This document shows, in pieces, positions 12,722 through 20,904 of a DNA stretch of 64,000 bases. Source of the stretch: Microbacterium helvum. Its GTDB lineage: Bacteria; Actinomycetota; Actinomycetes; Actinomycetales; Microbacteriaceae. Positions within the stretch are counted from its first letter, which is position 1, and each line of letters begins with the position of its first letter. The translations under genes and the position numbers were made by a program. The stretch covers positions 372,001-436,000 of the forward strand of contig NZ_JACXZS010000001.1 in the NCBI RefSeq assembly GCF_014779795.1. The letters run 5' to 3'. Below the pieces are notes generated by a model. That model had not been told where the DNA came from and searched no databases. It saw only the letters and a program-made list of their open reading frames with translations.

Positions 12722-15361
12722 GTGAGATTCAGACGTTCAGCGGCCGGACTCGTCGTCGCGGCCGGCGTCGTCCTCCCCCTCGCCGTCGTCGCGCCCGCGG
12801 CAGCGGCTCAGGCAGCACCACCACCTGTGCCGGCGGCATCCACTCCGTCCTACGAATGGTCGAACGCGGCCATCGCAGGCGGCGGCTACGTGCCGGGCAT
12901 CGTCTACAACCAGAGCGAGCCGGGGCTCGTGTACGCACGCACCGACATCGGCGGCGCGTACCGTCTGGACCGCACCACCGACCGATGGGTTCCGCTGCTC
13001 GACCACGTCGGCTGGGACGACTGGAACCGGCTCGGCGTGCTGAGCCTGGCCACCGACCCCGTCGACACCAGCCGGGTGTATGTCGCGGCGGGCATGTACA
13101 CGAACGAGTGGGATCCGGGCAACGGCGCCATCCTGCGGTCGGAAGACTACGGTGCGACATGGCAGGCCGCCCCGTTGCCCTTCAAGGTCGGTGGCAACAT
13201 GCCCGGCCGCGGGATCGGCGAGCGGCTGCAGATCGACCCGAGCGACGACGACGTGCTCTACTTCGGCGCCGAGTCGGGCCAGGGGCTGTGGCGTTCGACC
13301 GACGCCGGCGTCACGTTCACCAAGGTGGACTCGTTCCCCAACGCGGGCGACTTCGTGCCCGACGCGGGCTCGGGCAACTCATACCTGATGCAGAACCTCG
13401 GTGTGCTCTGGACCGCGTTCGACCCCGCCGGCACCTCCCCGGGCGAGCCGACGCGCACGATCCTCACGGCCGTGGCCGACACCGACGACATCCTGTACCG
13501 CTCAGACGACGCCGGCGCGACGTGGGCGCCGGTGACCGGCGCGCCGAAGGGCTTCCTGCCGCACCACGGCGTGATAGACGAGGACGGCCGGTTCCTCTAC
13601 CTCACGACGAGCAACACCTCGGGGCCGTACGACGGCTCGGACGGCGAGGTGTGGCGCTACGGCCTCGACGATGGCGTGTGGACGAACATCACCCCGGATT
13701 ACCGGCCGGTGGGCGTGGACTTCGGCTTCGGCGGGCTCACTGTCGACAAGAGCGACCCCGACACGATCATGGTCGCCTCGCAGATCCAGTGGTGGCCCGA
13801 CATCCTGATCTTCCGCTCGACCGACCGCGGTGCGACGTGGAGCCCGATCTGGGAGTACGCCTACGGCGCCGACGGCAGCACGACGCTCGACACCCGCTAC
13901 GTGCAGTCGGTGGACGAGGTGCCGTGGCTGACCTTCGGCAAGGACGCGGCGCCGCCCGTGCCGTGGTCCGAGCCCGCGCCGAAGCTCGGCTGGATGGTGT
14001 CGGCGCTCGAGATCGACCCGTTCGACTCCGACGAGCTCATGTACGGCACCGGTGCGACGATCTACCGCAGCGACGACCTCACCGCGTGGGACGAGCCCGG
14101 CGGCACGATCCACCTGACGCCCGAGGCGTTCGGCATCGAAGAGACTGCCATCCAGGATCTCGTCGCGCCTGCCGGTGACATCGAACTCGTCTCGGCCATG
14201 CTCGATCTCGGCGGCTTCGTCCACGACGACCTCGGCACGGTGCCACAGAGCTTCCGCAGTCCCTACTTCGGCGGCGGGACGAGCGTGGATGCCGCGGGCC
14301 TGGCCGCCTCGACGCTCGTGCGTGCCGGCACCGACGGCAACGGCGCGCGGGTGGTGGCGGCATCCACCGATTCCGGCACGACGTGGACGACCTCGCCCGC
14401 CGCCGACGGCGCAACCGGGCCGGGCACGGTCACGGTGAACGCGGACGGCTCGGGGATCGTGTGGGCGCCCGACGGAGCGGCCGTGCGCCACTCGTCGGAC
14501 GGCGGCGTGACGTTCGCAGAGGTCGGCGGGCTGCCCGTGGGCGCCCGCGTCGAGAGCGACCGCGTCGACCCGACCCGCGTGTACGCCTTCGCGGGCGGGA
14601 CGTTCTACCGCTCGGTCGACGCCGGTGCGACGTTCGCGGCGGTGTCGTCGGGGATACTCCCCGCCGAGGGTCCCGTGCGGTTCGGCGCGGCGCCGGGGGC
14701 GATCGGCGACGTGTGGCTCGCCGGCGGCTCCGACGATGGCGGCGTCTACGGGCTGTGGCACTCGACCGACGGCGGCACGACCTGGACCGCGACGGCCGGC
14801 TTCGACGAGGCCGACACGGTCGGCTTCGGCAAGGCGGCGCCCGGCGCGACGAGTCCGGCGATCTACACCGCGGCCTCGCGCGACGGCGTGCGCGGTGTCT
14901 ACCGCTCGACAGACGGCGGCGCCACGTGGGTGCGCATCAACGACGACCAGCACCAGTACGGCTGGATCGGCGCCGACATCGAGGGCGACCCCGACGTGTT
15001 CGGCCGCGTGTACCTCGCGACCAACGGCCGTGGGATCGTCGTCGGCGACGACGCGTCCGCCTCGGCGCCCGCGGCGTGGTCGGCGAGGGCCGTGTACGAC
15101 GAGGGCGACATCGTGACCTCGGACGGCGCCGTGTGGGTCGCGACCTGGTGGACGCAGAACCAGCGGCCAGGCGCGAAGAAGAACGGCCCGTGGCAAGAGG
15201 TCGCCGCGACCCCGACCGGCGTCGCCGTCTGGACGGCTTCGCGCATCTTCGACACCGGCGACGTGGTGTCGTCCGGGGGCAGCCTGTGGCGCGCGTCCTG
15301 GTGGACCCGCGGCGACGAGCCCGGCGCGAAGAAGAACGGTCCGTGGGAACGCCTCGGGTGA
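12722..15361 (+). CDS. Secreted GH74 xyloglucanase with two C-terminal carbohydrate-binding modules
   Basis: An 879-residue exported endoglucanase, predicted to cut xyloglucan. The signal peptide (1-31) ends in APAAAAQA. A two-propeller catalytic region has many Asp-box repeats (RSEDYGATW, RSTDAGVTF, RSDDAGATW, HSTDGGTTW). The conserved acidic pair of the family can be placed at Asp75 in RTDIGGAY and Asp495 in MLDLGGF. Two CBM5/12-like modules close the protein, both with the pattern W-x-A-x-x-(Y/F)-D-x-G-D-V and ending GAKKNGPWE. The start is GTG 12722, 9 bases after AGGAG. A terminator follows. Confidence 0.92.
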   Translation: MRFRRSAAGLVVAAGVVLPLAVVAPAAAAQAAPPPVPAASTPSYEWSNAAIAGGGYVPGIVYNQSEPGLVYARTDIGGAYRLDRTTDRWVPLLDHVGWDDWNRLGVLSLATDPVDTSRVYVAAGMYTNEWDPGNGAILRSEDYGATWQAAPLPFKVGGNMPGRGIGERLQIDPSDDDVLYFGAESGQGLWRSTDAGVTFTKVDSFPNAGDFVPDAGSGNSYLMQNLGVLWTAFDPAGTSPGEPTRTILTAVADTDDILYRSDDAGATWAPVTGAPKGFLPHHGVIDEDGRFLYLTTSNTSGPYDGSDGEVWRYGLDDGVWTNITPDYRPVGVDFGFGGLTVDKSDPDTIMVASQIQWWPDILIFRSTDRGATWSPIWEYAYGADGSTTLDTRYVQSVDEVPWLTFGKDAAPPVPWSEPAPKLGWMVSALEIDPFDSDELMYGTGATIYRSDDLTAWDEPGGTIHLTPEAFGIEETAIQDLVAPAGDIELVSAMLDLGGFVHDDLGTVPQSFRSPYFGGGTSVDAAGLAASTLVRAGTDGNGARVVAASTDSGTTWTTSPAADGATGPGTVTVNADGSGIVWAPDGAAVRHSSDGGVTFAEVGGLPVGARVESDRVDPTRVYAFAGGTFYRSVDAGATFAAVSSGILPAEGPVRFGAAPGAIGDVWLAGGSDDGGVYGLWHSTDGGTTWTATAGFDEADTVGFGKAAPGATSPAIYTAASRDGVRGVYRSTDGGATWVRINDDQHQYGWIGADIEGDPDVFGRVYLATNGRGIVVGDDASASAPAAWSARAVYDEGDIVTSDGAVWVATWWTQNQRPGAKKNGPWQEVAATPTGVAVWTASRIFDTGDVVSSGGSLWRASWWTRGDEPGAKKNGPWERLG

Positions 15362-15369
15362 TGTGAGGG

Positions 15370-15403
15370 GTGGATGCCGGCTGCCGCGGCCGCCGGCATC
15401 CAC
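15370..15403. terminator. GTGGATGCC-type terminator hairpin after GH74
   Basis: Perfect 12-base arms (GTGGATGCCGGC and its complement) with a 10-base loop start 8 bases after the GH74 stop. The hairpin carries the GGATGCC word shared with other terminators here. Confidence 0.7.
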
Positions 15404-15487
15404 CGTTCCTTCAGCCAGTCCGGCCGTCGACGGCGCGCATCCCCGCCGGGCCCGCATCGCGCCTCGCACCGGTGCCAGGATGGAGTG

Positions 15488-16189: not shown

Positions 16190-16201
16190 GACAGGCGATC
16201 G

Positions 16202-16235
16202 GTGGATGCCGGCGGCCTCGGCCGCCGGCATCCAC
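16202..16235. terminator. Perfect 15-base-arm terminator hairpin
   Basis: Arms GTGGATGCCGGCGGC and its complement surround the loop CTCG, 13 bases after the HAD stop. It is the most regular of the GGATGCC hairpins. Confidence 0.75.
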
Positions 16236-16327
16236 TTCCCGTCAGCGGGGTCCACTCGCGCGCTGCTCATCGAGGTCATGCGTCCTCAACGGAAGAGGCC
16301 CGCTCAGCCCGTCGATACGCTGGGGGC

Positions 16328-18191: not shown

Positions 18192-18908
18192 TCAGGCCGT
18201 GATCAGCGTGCCCAGGTCCTCGCCCTCGCAGATGCGGCGCATGAGCCCGGGGCGGCCCACGTCGAAGACGTGCATCGTGAGGTCCTGCTCGCCCGCGAGC
18301 ACGAAGGCGCTGGTGTCCATCACGCGGATGCCGAGGCGCACCGCCTCGTCGTAGCTGAGCCGGTCGAAGCGCACCGCGTCGTCGTGCTGGTTCGGGTCCT
18401 TGTCGTAGACGGCGTCGATGTCGCGCTTGGCGACCAGCAGCGCGTCGGCCTCGAGCTCGAGCGCCCGCTGCACGGACGGGTAGTCGGTGGTGACGTACGG
18501 CTGCCCGATGCCGCCCGCGAGGATCACGATCCGTCGCTGCGTCAGGTGCGAGATCGCCCGCAGCCGGATGAACGGCTCCGCGACCGACTGCATCGGGATC
18601 GCCGTCATCACGCGGATGTCGGCATCGGTGCGGCCGGTGAGCGCACCGCGCAGCATGAGCGCGTTCATCACGGTGCCGAGCATGCCGATGTTGTCGGCCT
18701 CGGCTCGTCCGATGCCCCAGCCGTCGGCCATGCGCCCGCGGAAGTAGTTGCCGCCGCCGACCACGACGGCGACCTCGACGCCCAGGTCGTGCACGGCGAG
18801 CACCTCGTCGCTCAGGTGCGCGAGCCGCTCCGGATCCACGCCCGAACCGGATGCGCCGGCGAGCGCCTCGCCGCTCAGCTTCAGGACCACTCGCCCGTAT
18901 CTCGACAT
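18192..18908 (-). CDS. pyrH: Uridylate (UMP) kinase
   Basis: A 238-residue amino-acid-kinase-fold enzyme, the normal PyrH length, phosphorylating UMP to UDP. Signatures are VVLKLSGEAL at the N-terminus, VVVGGGNYFRG, GMLGTVMNALML, AGGIGQPYVTTDYPS (UMP-site TTD region), and VMDTSAFVLA with a C-terminal GTLITA. PyrH is normally encoded between tsf and frr. Here it stands alone between two strong hairpins, beside the DAHP synthase gene, which suggests either rearrangement or a second copy. I cannot tell which from this window. Confidence 0.93.
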   Translation of the reverse strand: MSRYGRVVLKLSGEALAGASGSGVDPERLAHLSDEVLAVHDLGVEVAVVVGGGNYFRGRMADGWGIGRAEADNIGMLGTVMNALMLRGALTGRTDADIRVMTAIPMQSVAEPFIRLRAISHLTQRRIVILAGGIGQPYVTTDYPSVQRALELEADALLVAKRDIDAVYDKDPNQHDDAVRFDRLSYDEAVRLGIRVMDTSAFVLAGEQDLTMHVFDVGRPGLMRRICEGEDLGTLITA

Positions 18909-19004
18909 CGAACCCTCGTCTCTCGTCCGGCGCCGGCCGGCATCGCCCGGACGATGCTACCGGTGCGGTTCACCCGGGTCTGATCGCTCCCGGTTTCAGA
19001 ACAA

Positions 19005-19052
19005 TGGATGCCGCCACCCGGCGCGCCGGGAGCGCCCGGGTGGCGGCATCCA
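19005..19052 (-). terminator. Terminator hairpin after the DAHP synthase gene
   Basis: Perfect 17-base arms (TGGATGCCGCCACCCGG and complement) with a 14-base loop lie 10 bases after the stop on the minus strand. This is another GGATGCC-type hairpin. Confidence 0.75.
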
Positions 19053-19062
19053 CCGTTCCGGT

Positions 19063-20139
19063 TCAGGCGACGGCGGCCTCGGCCACGCGCCTGCGCTGCC
19101 GTGCGGCGGCGGCGAGGTCGCCGAGGAGCGCCTCGGTGGTGTCCCAGTCGATGCACGCGTCGGTGACCGATTGGCCGTAGACCAGGCGGTCACGGGTCTC
19201 GGCGGTGAGCTTCTGGTTGCCGCCCACGAGGAAGCTCTCGATCATGACGCCCGCGATGTCGTCGGTGGCGGCGAGCTGACCGGCGAGCTCGCGCACGACC
19301 TCGGCCTGCCGAACGTGATCCTTGCCGCTGTTGGCGTGGCTCGCGTCGACGACGAGGCGGCGCGGCATGCCCGCACGCTCCAGCAGGCCCGCGGACGCCT
19401 CGATGTCGGCGGGGCGGAAGTTCGGGCCGCCTCGCCCGCCGCGCAGCACGACGTGCGCGGCACGGTTGCCCGTGGTCGAGACGACGGCGGCGGCACCGGA
19501 GTCGTCGGTGCCGAAGAACACGTGCTGCTGCGACGCGACCGTGCAGCCGTCGACCGCGATCTGCACGTCGCCGTCCGTGGCGTTCTTGAAGCCGATCGGC
19601 ATCGACAGCCCGGAGGCCAGCTGGCGGTGGATCTGGCTCTCGGTCGTGCGGGCGCCGATGGCGCCCCAGGCGACGGCATCCGCGATGAACTGCGGGCTGA
19701 TCGGCTCCAGGAACTCGCACCCGATCGGCAGACCCAGGTCGAGCACGTCGAGCAGCAGGCGTCGCGCGACGCGCAGGCCGCGCACGACGTCGTGGGTGCC
19801 ATCGAGGCCCGGGTCGTTGATGAGGCCCTTCCAGCCGCCCGTCGAACGCGGCTTCTCGAAGTAGACGCGCATCACGACGAGCAGATCGTCGCGGTGCCGC
19901 TCCGCCGCGACGGCGAGGCGGCGGGCGTAGTCCACAGCCGCCTCGGGATCGTGCACCGAGCACGGGCCGACGACCACCAGCAGGCGGTCGTCGTCACCGC
20001 GCAGGACGGCCTCGACCTCGGCGCGGGAGTCGGTGACCGCCGCCTCGTGGGCAGCCGTCATGGGCAGCTCCCGCCGCAGCTCGGCCGGCGAGGGCAGCGG
20101 GGTGAAAGAGGCGACACGGAGGTCGTGAGTGGCGTTCAT
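19063..20139 (-). CDS. aroG: 3-deoxy-7-phosphoheptulonate (DAHP) synthase, type I
   Basis: A 358-residue type I (AroFGH) enzyme catalysing the first step of the shikimate pathway from phosphoenolpyruvate and erythrose 4-phosphate. Marks are VVVGPCSVHDPEAA, RVYFEKPRSTGGWKGLINDP, GARTTESQIHRQLASGLSMPIGFKN in spaced blocks, and DASHANSGKDH near the metal site. Type I enzymes are usually feedback-inhibited by aromatic amino acids. The 160-base leader carries an aromatic-rich leader peptide and hairpins, so transcription is probably controlled by attenuation. Which amino acid dominates is unclear because the peptide has Phe, Trp and Tyr codons. Confidence 0.95.
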   Translation of the reverse strand: MNATHDLRVASFTPLPSPAELRRELPMTAAHEAAVTDSRAEVEAVLRGDDDRLLVVVGPCSVHDPEAAVDYARRLAVAAERHRDDLLVVMRVYFEKPRSTGGWKGLINDPGLDGTHDVVRGLRVARRLLLDVLDLGLPIGCEFLEPISPQFIADAVAWGAIGARTTESQIHRQLASGLSMPIGFKNATDGDVQIAVDGCTVASQQHVFFGTDDSGAAAVVSTTGNRAAHVVLRGGRGGPNFRPADIEASAGLLERAGMPRRLVVDASHANSGKDHVRQAEVVRELAGQLAATDDIAGVMIESFLVGGNQKLTAETRDRLVYGQSVTDACIDWDTTEALLGDLAAAARQRRRVAEAAVA

Positions 20140-20196
20140 GCGGGTTCCTGTTCCCGGCGGGACCCGGGACCAGGCCACCGCCGTGTTAACGACGAA

Positions 20197-20275
20197 GGCA
20201 GACCCTCGAACGAGTGTCTGCCTGTGGCTCTGGAGGTGCGGTGCGCTTATCGGCGGTCGGCTCCTCCAGAGCCAC
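20197..20275 (-). promoter_or_regulatory. Transcription attenuator hairpins upstream of aroG
   Basis: Reading on the minus strand: a 13-base inverted repeat pairs 20275-20263 (inside leader codons 10-14) with 20236-20224. This is followed by a terminator-like hairpin 20222-20197 (GGCAGAC...GTCTGCC), with TTCGTCGTT after it. CAGAGCC in the second arm could also pair with GGGTCTG of the terminator's 3' arm at 6 of 7 positions, which would give an antiterminator. The first arm lies immediately after the aromatic codons, so a ribosome stalled there would cover it. The arrangement is seen; the mechanism is inferred. Confidence 0.75.
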
Positions 20276-20303
20276 TCCGATACGCATACCAGCGGAAGTC
20301 CAT
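20247..20303 (-). CDS. aroG leader peptide MDFRWYAYRSGSGGADRR
   Basis: An 18-codon reading frame ends 107 bases upstream of the aroG start. Codons 3, 5, 6 and 8 are Phe, Trp, Tyr and Tyr, so four of the first eight codons specify the pathway's end products. The stop TAA falls in the loop between the arms of the 13-base inverted repeat. No strong ribosome-binding site is visible, only purines near CACCGG. The composition and position are those of a classical attenuation leader peptide. Confidence 0.75.
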   Translation of the reverse strand: MDFRWYAYRSGSGGADRR

Positions 20304-20361
20304 GCCGCGACGGTACCGGTGACTCACCCCGATTCCAAATCGCGGCGCATAGTGTGGCGTC

Positions 20362-20904
20362 ATGATCTGGCAGACGCTCGCCTCCCGCACCGTGTACGAG
20401 AACCGCTGGATCCGGGTGCGAGAGGACGACGTCATCGGGCCCGACGGCGCCGGCATCTACGGCGTGGTCGAGATGCGGCATCCCGCCGTCTTCGTCGTGG
20501 CGCTCGATCCCGACGATCGTGTGCTGCTCGTGTCGCTGTACCGGTACGCGACGAGCCGCGCATCGCTCGAGGTGCCTGCCGGAGGCTCCGACGGCGAGGA
20601 CGCGCTGATCGCCGCCCGACGTGAGCTGGCCGAAGAGACCGGCTACGCGGCGTCGGAATGGACCGAGATCGGCCGCATGGACGCCCTGAACGGCCTCGCC
20701 GACGCGCCCGAGCACGTGTTCCTGGCGCGAGGCCTGCACCGCGTCGCCGACGCCGCCCACACGCAGCACGAGGAGGGCATCGACAGCGTCCGGTGGGTGC
20801 CGTTCGGCGAGGTTCTCTCGCTCATCGCGGGCGGCGAGATCACCGACGGCGAGACGATCGCCGCGCTCGCGTTCGCCGGCATCCAGCTGGGACGGTTCCG
20901 GTGA
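20362..20904 (+). CDS. NUDIX hydrolase, ADP-ribose pyrophosphatase-like
   Basis: A 180-residue NUDIX enzyme. The NUDIX box is GGSDGEDALIAARRELAEE followed by TGY, with the metal-binding REL-x-EE intact. It is one residue short in the first loop compared with the usual AGKxxxGE. EVPAGG before the box and an N-terminal strand region (YENRWIRVREDDV) resemble ADP-ribose pyrophosphatases, which hydrolyse nucleoside diphosphate sugars. It is divergent from the aroG leader and followed 23 bases later by the YdeI-like gene. Confidence 0.88.
   Translation: MIWQTLASRTVYENRWIRVREDDVIGPDGAGIYGVVEMRHPAVFVVALDPDDRVLLVSLYRYATSRASLEVPAGGSDGEDALIAARRELAEETGYAASEWTEIGRMDALNGLADAPEHVFLARGLHRVADAAHTQHEEGIDSVRWVPFGEVLSLIAGGEITDGETIAALAFAGIQLGRFR

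Follow-up and report, generated by a model that had tools for sequence, protein, structure and literature searches.

Leader-peptide attenuation is known from trpL, the trp attenuator of Escherichia coli, and the ilv and thr attenuators respond to several amino acids. The element described here lies directly before the DAHP synthase gene aroG in a 64,000-nt stretch of Microbacterium helvum DNA (the window), and it shares with trpL a leader ORF with codons for the product, alternative hairpins and a stem-loop before the gene. The same features belong to the actinobacterial trpL (PMC1262725). Antiterminator and terminator of the trp attenuators share conserved complementary triples, whereas for the window element no segment pairing with the terminator arms was found. 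The ilvB-II motif of Corynebacterium (PMC10272879) is alike in having an upstream ORF over most of the first stem, a terminator as the second stem, and covariation; the right shoulder of its terminator has an alternative partner, but none was found in our case. The mycobacterial uORF candidates (PMC4633059, PMC1262725) are also small conserved upstream ORFs with product codons, but the codons are for cysteine and no conserved terminator hairpin is given, which makes them a different element. Upstream of actinobacterial phenylalanine and tyrosine operons a survey from 2005 reported no conserved RNA structure (PMC1262725).

A full-text literature search, mostly of papers outside subscription, returned a single published case of an aromatic leader before a DAHP synthase (DAHPS) gene, the AroR leader of aroF in Corynebacterium glutamicum (Neshat et al. 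2014, through parts of PMC4046766, PMC11802643, PMC7356990 and PMC11525245). In these parts, aroF has attenuator transcripts and a Phe-Tyr-Phe leader (PMC4046766), and AroR controls aroF by phenylalanine supply, with induction under phenylalanine limitation (PMC11802643, PMC11525245). Tyrosine is reported there to be without effect (PMC11802643) in spite of the tyrosine codon, and therefore a codon in a leader does not prove sensing. Like AroR, the window has a short aromatic leader directly before the DAHPS gene. The two differ in that AroR reads Phe-Tyr-Phe and responds to phenylalanine, whereas the window leader reads Trp-Tyr-Ala-Tyr, with a conserved Trp-Tyr-x-Tyr and no conserved Phe. Moreover, the AroR accounts, in the parts cited, mention neither a wider spread nor targets such as tyrS and chorismate mutase, nor the rare codons and the lack of an antiterminator that mark the family reported here, and the same search, within its scope, found neither this wider family nor its tyrS and chorismate mutase elements nor the window's leader described. 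The AroR-type plan, that is an aromatic leader with helices b:c and d:d' directly before a type I DAHPS gene, is found in the window element. Two Corynebacterium-like genomes (L194 and L195; genus inferred in part from their family and the FYF motif) carry a leader with WRFYF, the same GGCTCCGG / CCGGAGCC arms and a hairpin after them. The window element is related to AroR but differs from it in its codons, and is not AroR itself.

The aroG leader of Microbacterium

The features of the locus are collected in Table 1. The original prediction of a short frame, MDFRWYAYRSGSGGADRR, ahead of aroG with Phe, Trp, Tyr and Tyr at codons 3, 5, 6 and 8 was confirmed in the minus-strand sequence. Its 13-base inverted repeat was found as described, with 20275-20263 (codons 10-14) complementary to 20236-20224 at 13/13 bases. 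The terminator-like hairpin placed at 20197-20222 is present, with its extent corrected to 20223-20196, one base more at each end. When the 240 nt upstream of aroG were shuffled preserving dinucleotides, a perfect inverted repeat of at least 13 bases arose in 1/1000 shuffles, a short ORF with three aromatic codons in four in 6/1000, and both together in 0/1000. The fold of 151 nt at the leader region had a z of -3.8. Rfam models at gathering scores called no family at the leader and one tRNA across the whole 64-kb window, and a T-box or other catalogued RNA family was rejected for lack of such a match. A pattern search of the own genome for the element matched the aroG locus only.

Table 1. 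Features of the aroG leader region in the window
Feature	Positions	Strand	Details	Evidence
Promoter	20310..20338	minus	-35 TTGGAA (20338-20333), 17-nt spacer, -10 TACCGT (20315-20310), 6 nt to leader ATG	sequence and relatives
Leader ORF	20247..20303	minus	MDFRWYAYRSGSGGADRR; ATG 20303 to TAA 20247, 18 codons	sequence
Phe codon	20297-20295	minus	TTC of leader ORF	not conserved
Sensor codons	within leader ORF	minus	TGG (20291-20289), TAT (20288-20286), TAT (20282-20280)	conserved in relatives
Possible outer stem P1	20240..20290	minus	GGTATGCGTATCGG (20290-20277, sensor codons) with CCGATAAGCGCACC (20253-20240, around stop codon)	12/14 pairs
Arm b	20263..20275	minus	GTGGCTCTGGAGG, leader codons 10-14	sequence, ungapped helices, covariation
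Local hairpin P2	20259..20273	minus	GGCTC (20273-20269) with GAGCC (20263-20259)	sequence, single-sequence folds of many relatives, helix scan of 17 Microbacterium leaders
Arm c	20224..20236	minus	CCTCCAGAGCCAC, partner of b	covariation; own vs cross-group pairing 31.25 vs 22.52, 0/400
Terminator-like hairpin d:d' and tail	20188..20223	minus	20223-20212 with 20207-20196; tail TCGTCGTT (20195-20188)	abuts arm c without gap; d:d' covaries
Post-hairpin segment	20140..20187	minus	Shine-Dalgarno AGGAA (20149-20145); possible partners of arm c and the SD inside	
Type I DAHP synthase (aroG)	19063..20139	minus	358 aa, controlled gene	PF00793 E 2e-82; TIGR00034 aroFGH 475.5 bits vs cut-off 173.2

Two genomes of the same genus (G028 and G065) have a type I DAHPS 93-94% identical to that of the window. 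Their leader ORFs are identical at 57/57 and 56/57 positions, compared with only 72% and 67% of the DAHPS third codon positions. In the three species the DNA hardly varies between the -10 box and the hairpin tail, while the upstream flank differs, and the only leader change between the window and these two closest relatives is Phe3 to Ile. In a relative outside the genus but within Microbacteriaceae (71% DAHPS identity) the leader is MVIRWYAYEVGSGGAAFAR, which also has no Phe. Trp5, Tyr6 and Tyr8 are constant in the window and its three closest relatives. A type II DAHPS was found in 58/59 genus genomes searched, including the window's genome, and type I in 21/119, so the isozyme behind the leader is a second and optional one.

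The surroundings of the gene were also inspected. The divergent Nudix gene upstream of aroG (20362-20904) adjoins the element in the window and lies about 700 bases off in the two closest relatives (L082, L083); the element itself kept its place at aroG. Directly downstream of aroG there is a second UMP kinase gene (pyrH; 18192-18908, minus strand). The own genome has two UMP kinase matches above the family cut-off, and no such gene was found beside aroG within the 1.5-kb flanks in G028 or G065. A GGTGGATGCCGCC-like sequence occurs in 39 copies in the window at no more than two mismatches versus 5.7 expected. Several copies form inverted pairs, one of them right after aroG (e.g. 19003-19015 / 19042-19054, 14284-14368, 15369-15404, 16201-16236), and the sequence may be a palindromic terminator or repeat that occurs in dispersed copies.

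The window transcript probably begins at or adjoining the leader ATG. G028 and G065 have TTGACC or TTGACG and TACGGT at the positions matching the two promoter boxes, despite their differing upstream neighbourhood. A consensus promoter scan called none at the leader. In all 92 DAHPS leaders of the tally described below, a TANNNT box is followed after 6-8 nt by an in-frame start, ATG or GTG (shifted control, 0.01), and because of this spacing the DAHPS leaders are probably leaderless. An SD-like sequence was present in 5/92 of them, and 0/91 structural genes have such a box. In the chorismate mutase and tyrS leaders TANNNT lies 5-9 nt ahead of an in-frame start in 24/24 cases, with the starts chosen by reading. 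Transcripts beginning at the start codon are reported for ilvB in C. diphtheriae and for several S. lividans leaders (PMC5784534, PMC8079986).

Spread, target genes and codons of the family

A leader of the same plan was found upstream of type I DAHPS in 25/32 actinobacterial loci, drawn from 80 that were fetched (two Bifidobacterium loci, L043 and L044, are among the remainder left out). Among 87 genomes of the class with a type I DAHPS, 57 have the leader (53 by ORF scan and 4 by covariance model R1 and reading), 29 lack it and one is masked by N. The genomes lacking the leader comprise 27 of family f22, including a Nocardiopsis, with one each of f24 and f43. Within the genus the element stands directly before the gene in 21/21 genomes that have type I DAHPS, 10 of which were in the training set of R1; the R1 E-value is 5e-14 or better for the window trio and 1.3e-19 or better for the others. 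Examples come from Microbacterium (RWYAYFESALEGPA), Arthrobacter (RWYAYFPLALEEPA), Gordonia (AYWRFIEAPGGA), a Streptomyces (RWYWRYEPAPGGAGG) and Rhodococcus (RAYFWFSRPAPGGS), and the element also occurs in mycobacteria and a Catellatospora. Covariance model R2 gave no match outside the class in 396 sampled genomes of the phylum, with filters that lose weak matches. Weak model matches (E ~1e-4 to 1e-2) were not counted, and four that were read (L244, L245, L248, L252) resembled ordinary gene-end terminators. L101 was excluded since its match begins at residue 119. One genome, G570, has two type I DAHPS genes (L204, L205), one with an aromatic leader; the scan found none for the other.

The element also precedes other genes. 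R1, trained on DAHPS leaders only, detected second copies before tyrosyl-tRNA synthetase genes in G042 and G107 (E ~1.5e-9) and in G444 (E 2e-8). With R2 further tyrS cases came to light in families f7 and f9; as two tyrS loci, along with ten chorismate mutase loci, had served to train this model, these later matches are not fully independent. All seven tyrS genes score above the TIGR00234 cut-off, their elements come from three families, and each of the seven leaders has one aromatic codon, TAT. In 17 f22 genomes, none of them among the 27 with type I DAHPS, R1 found elements (E 2e-8 to 1e-13) that precede a gene for chorismate mutase, either by itself or in fusion with a partial DAHPS-like domain. 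The chorismate mutase was identified by Pfam CM_2 in 11/17 and by sequence pattern in the other six, and all these elements come from f22. Their leaders have Phe (TTT) in 17/17, Tyr in 11/17, mostly as the common TAC (8/11), and Trp in 0/17. The fusion behind a Phe-type leader is seen at eight f22 loci (L237, L238, L246, L247, L250, L255, L261, L262), where the Pfam match of the DAHPS part is confined to the middle of the profile; this part is possibly a remnant with a regulatory role.

Codons were tallied in 92 DAHPS leaders, which are 96 minus four near-duplicates, picked by their aromatic motif; four leaders with Tyr and Phe only (L104, L116, L163, L172) stand outside this tally. All three aromatic residues occur in 76/92, Tyr and Phe in 12/92 and Trp and Tyr in 4/92, in a count that depends on the motif selection, and the leaders without Trp number 12/92. 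The ratio of TAT to TAC was 128:4 in the leaders versus 0:252 in gene bodies (Fisher p 2e-98), and that of TTT to TTC was 76:28 versus 3:416 (Fisher p 2e-63), in tests on related sequences that are not independent. Gene-body codons were taken from up to 300 codons per gene, and from only ~20 for the 510-base fetches.

The match between leader codon and gene product is the best evidence of what is sensed, and we infer that the window copy senses tryptophan and tyrosine. The original prediction of a leader sensing all three aromatic amino acids was not supported for the window copy, since Phe3 is Ile in two of the three closest relatives and is written with the common TTC, while the other three codons are conserved. 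It had also called sensing of several amino acids at once unusual, which does not hold in principle, because the ilv and thr attenuators do so. The Phe-Tyr-Phe of AroR is a further case (PMC4046766, PMC11802643).

Helices and the output step

Helices b:c and d:d' were examined in an alignment of 45 loci built without structure information. Its selection started without the 17 Rhodococcus-type leaders; the tail pattern cost another 9, thinning of near-identical sequences left 52, and 7 of these were removed by hand (L003, L006, L037, L139, L149, L166, L168). The two helices were paired in 92.2% of cells versus 79.5% in shuffled alignments, with two-sided changes at 14/22 pairs, and d:d' alone was paired in 97.0%. 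Four measures of covariation were reached by 0/500 shuffles and a fifth by 4/500, and alignments slid out of register gave a pairing of no more than 52.3%. The covariation was reproduced with other target genes, in 33 sequences. One cross-group score of b:c is biased, since c was chosen by its pairing with b; the test given in Table 1 uses an unbiased c. Ungapped b:c helices were never reached by shuffles in 73/92 leaders. The energy of the whole b:c duplex was a weak test, never reached by mononucleotide shuffles in 16/92, probably due to the high GC content.

P2 and b:c are mutually exclusive. The outer stem P1 is a possible addition: it is present in the folds of most Microbacterium relatives, and its cross-group test was not significant (65/300). 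The gap between arm c and d is 0-2 nt in 101/105 loci, measured within the 22 nt before d, which sets a limit to the gaps that could show. The tail is T-poor, and a consensus terminator scan, which wants 5 T in 8, made no call at the window hairpin; the mean over 105 loci is 3.8 T in 8. Most Rhodococcus-type leaders (L024-L029, L177-L180) are without d:d', and in them arm c pairs with a directly following CCGGCTC. This c:c' design is mutually exclusive with b:c and closer to the textbook attenuator; L027 and L154 do have a d:d'-like hairpin.

The comparison of sequences supports the leader, its codon choice, the promoter spacing of the leaderless type, both helices and the match of codon and gene. 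The original prediction that DAHP synthase is preceded by an attenuator with an aromatic leader peptide is supported by the test it had itself proposed, since codons and stems are conserved and covarying in relatives. As in trp-type attenuators, a short ORF with clustered end-product codons is kept in relatives and its codons overlap a covarying helix. We consider it likely that this leader-peptide attenuator couples the second, type I DAHP synthase to charged tRNA-Trp and tRNA-Tyr. RNA synthesis would start at the leader ATG, and ribosomes would load on the leaderless message. When tryptophan or tyrosine is short, the ribosome would stall at TGG-TAT-GCG-TAT with its leading edge at arm b or immediately ahead of it, where it would exclude P2 (and P1, if real) and bring b:c and the terminator junction under its control, and RNA polymerase would continue into aroG. 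With ample supply the ribosome would reach the stop codon or leave, and the d:d' hairpin would terminate the transcript. Stalling would raise expression, and the output would mainly be premature termination at d:d'.

A classical 2:3 antiterminator was rejected by equilibrium folding with an occluding ribosome in 11 loci and by cross-group complementarity tests. Modelled stalling left terminator formation nearly unchanged in the 11 loci. Four upstream segments showed no covarying complementarity to d and d' in the own versus cross-group test; the nearest candidate, the P2/b region with d' (18/300), was not confirmed with d' plus tail (319/400). The pairing of arm c with the terminator 3' arm (6/7) proposed earlier can be written, but it has no covariation in the family (190/300), and the modelled terminator probability in the window stays at 0.89 whether the message is free of ribosomes or carries one at Trp5, Tyr6, Tyr8 or the stop codon. 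Since no antiterminator exclusive with the terminator was found, we do not file the element as a standard trp-type member but describe it as a variant that would work like a ribosome-mediated trp-type attenuator.

In the window, the modelled probability of b:c is 0.93 without ribosome or with the ribosome at Trp5 or Tyr6, 0.62 at Tyr8 and 0.49 at the stop codon. Since b:c is already dominant, the expected switch would be weak there. In L088 the modelled b:c rises from 0.04 without ribosome to 0.85 with the ribosome at the Trp or the first Tyr codon, and in L013 from 0.02 to 0.96 when stalled, but there a ribosome at the stop codon gives 0.96 as well. In some relatives, according to these models, ribosome position can choose between P2 (plus the possible outer stem) and b:c, although equilibrium folding predicts co-transcriptional events poorly. 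The sensor codon sits a few nucleotides before arm b, and together with c abutting d this geometry is near-invariant, which suggests that the stalled ribosome acts sterically at the junction of b:c and d:d'. We tentatively propose, as a possibility with the odds against it, a class of attenuators without antiterminator. The open end of b:c would lie 0-2 nt from the terminator stem, a ribosome that stalls at the sensor codon and reaches the start of b would press on this junction and block the terminator sterically, and a codon swap at the near-fixed place would retune the switch (Tyr ahead of tyrS, Phe and often Tyr ahead of chorismate mutase, a mixture ahead of DAHP synthase).

The output could instead be translational. 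Helix b:c would then compete with a pairing of c and a post-hairpin segment e, which in turn would compete with a pairing of e and sequence near the aroG SD (f), so that stalling would free the SD. Arm c does pair better with the post-hairpin region of its own group than across groups (19.28 vs 17.20, 0/400, and 19.2 vs 16.3, 0/400), the control pair of b with this region is not significant (365/400; 71/400), and c:e can be pointed out in several groups (CAGAGCC:GGCTCTG in Microbacterium, 10 pairs in L175, 11 pairs with two G-U in L246). The post-hairpin region with the SD reached 1/400, judged from the second test only, since in the 19.28 vs 17.20 test the segments taken for SD and region share 4 nt. 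Most Rhodococcus/Nocardia-group loci, with a c:c' hairpin in place of d:d', would also fit a translational output. Yet c:e falls short of significance in the window group (median p 0.70), as does, overall, the e:f step that the relay needs (Fisher p 0.44), and modelled SD accessibility shows no consistent rise on stalling, being lower in the stalled state than at the stop in 4/4 loci of the window group. We regard this relay as rather improbable.

A role of Rho is less probable still, and we hold it unlikely. Rho would load on a C-rich, ribosome-free stretch near c that b:c hides on stalling, and d:d' would only pause polymerase or guard the 3' end. The T-poor tails of the family would suit this, as would the C-rich, G-poor sequence seen by eye from the leader stop to arm c in many relatives and the few intrinsic terminators predicted in actinobacteria (PMC2965389), but the model needs no hairpin such as d:d', which covaries and is paired almost throughout the 45 loci. 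It is very improbable that we are dealing with a conserved small peptide or promoter-proximal hairpin without a role in aromatic supply, in which the aromatic codons are incidental, for this offers no ready explanation of the Tyr-only tyrS leaders, the Trp-free chorismate mutase leaders and the rare-codon bias.

On the sequence comparisons, our judgement is that of a real aromatic leader attenuator whose output step appears to depart from the textbook, and the element very probably adjusts the making of aromatic amino acids to their supply. If so, a single transferable RNA module whose sensor codons can be exchanged would control the entry step of the pathway, its branch point towards Phe and Tyr, and the tyrosyl-tRNA synthetase in many Actinomycetes. 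The natural codon swaps would make the rule that the leader codon is the amino acid sensed directly testable, and likewise antitermination without an antiterminator.
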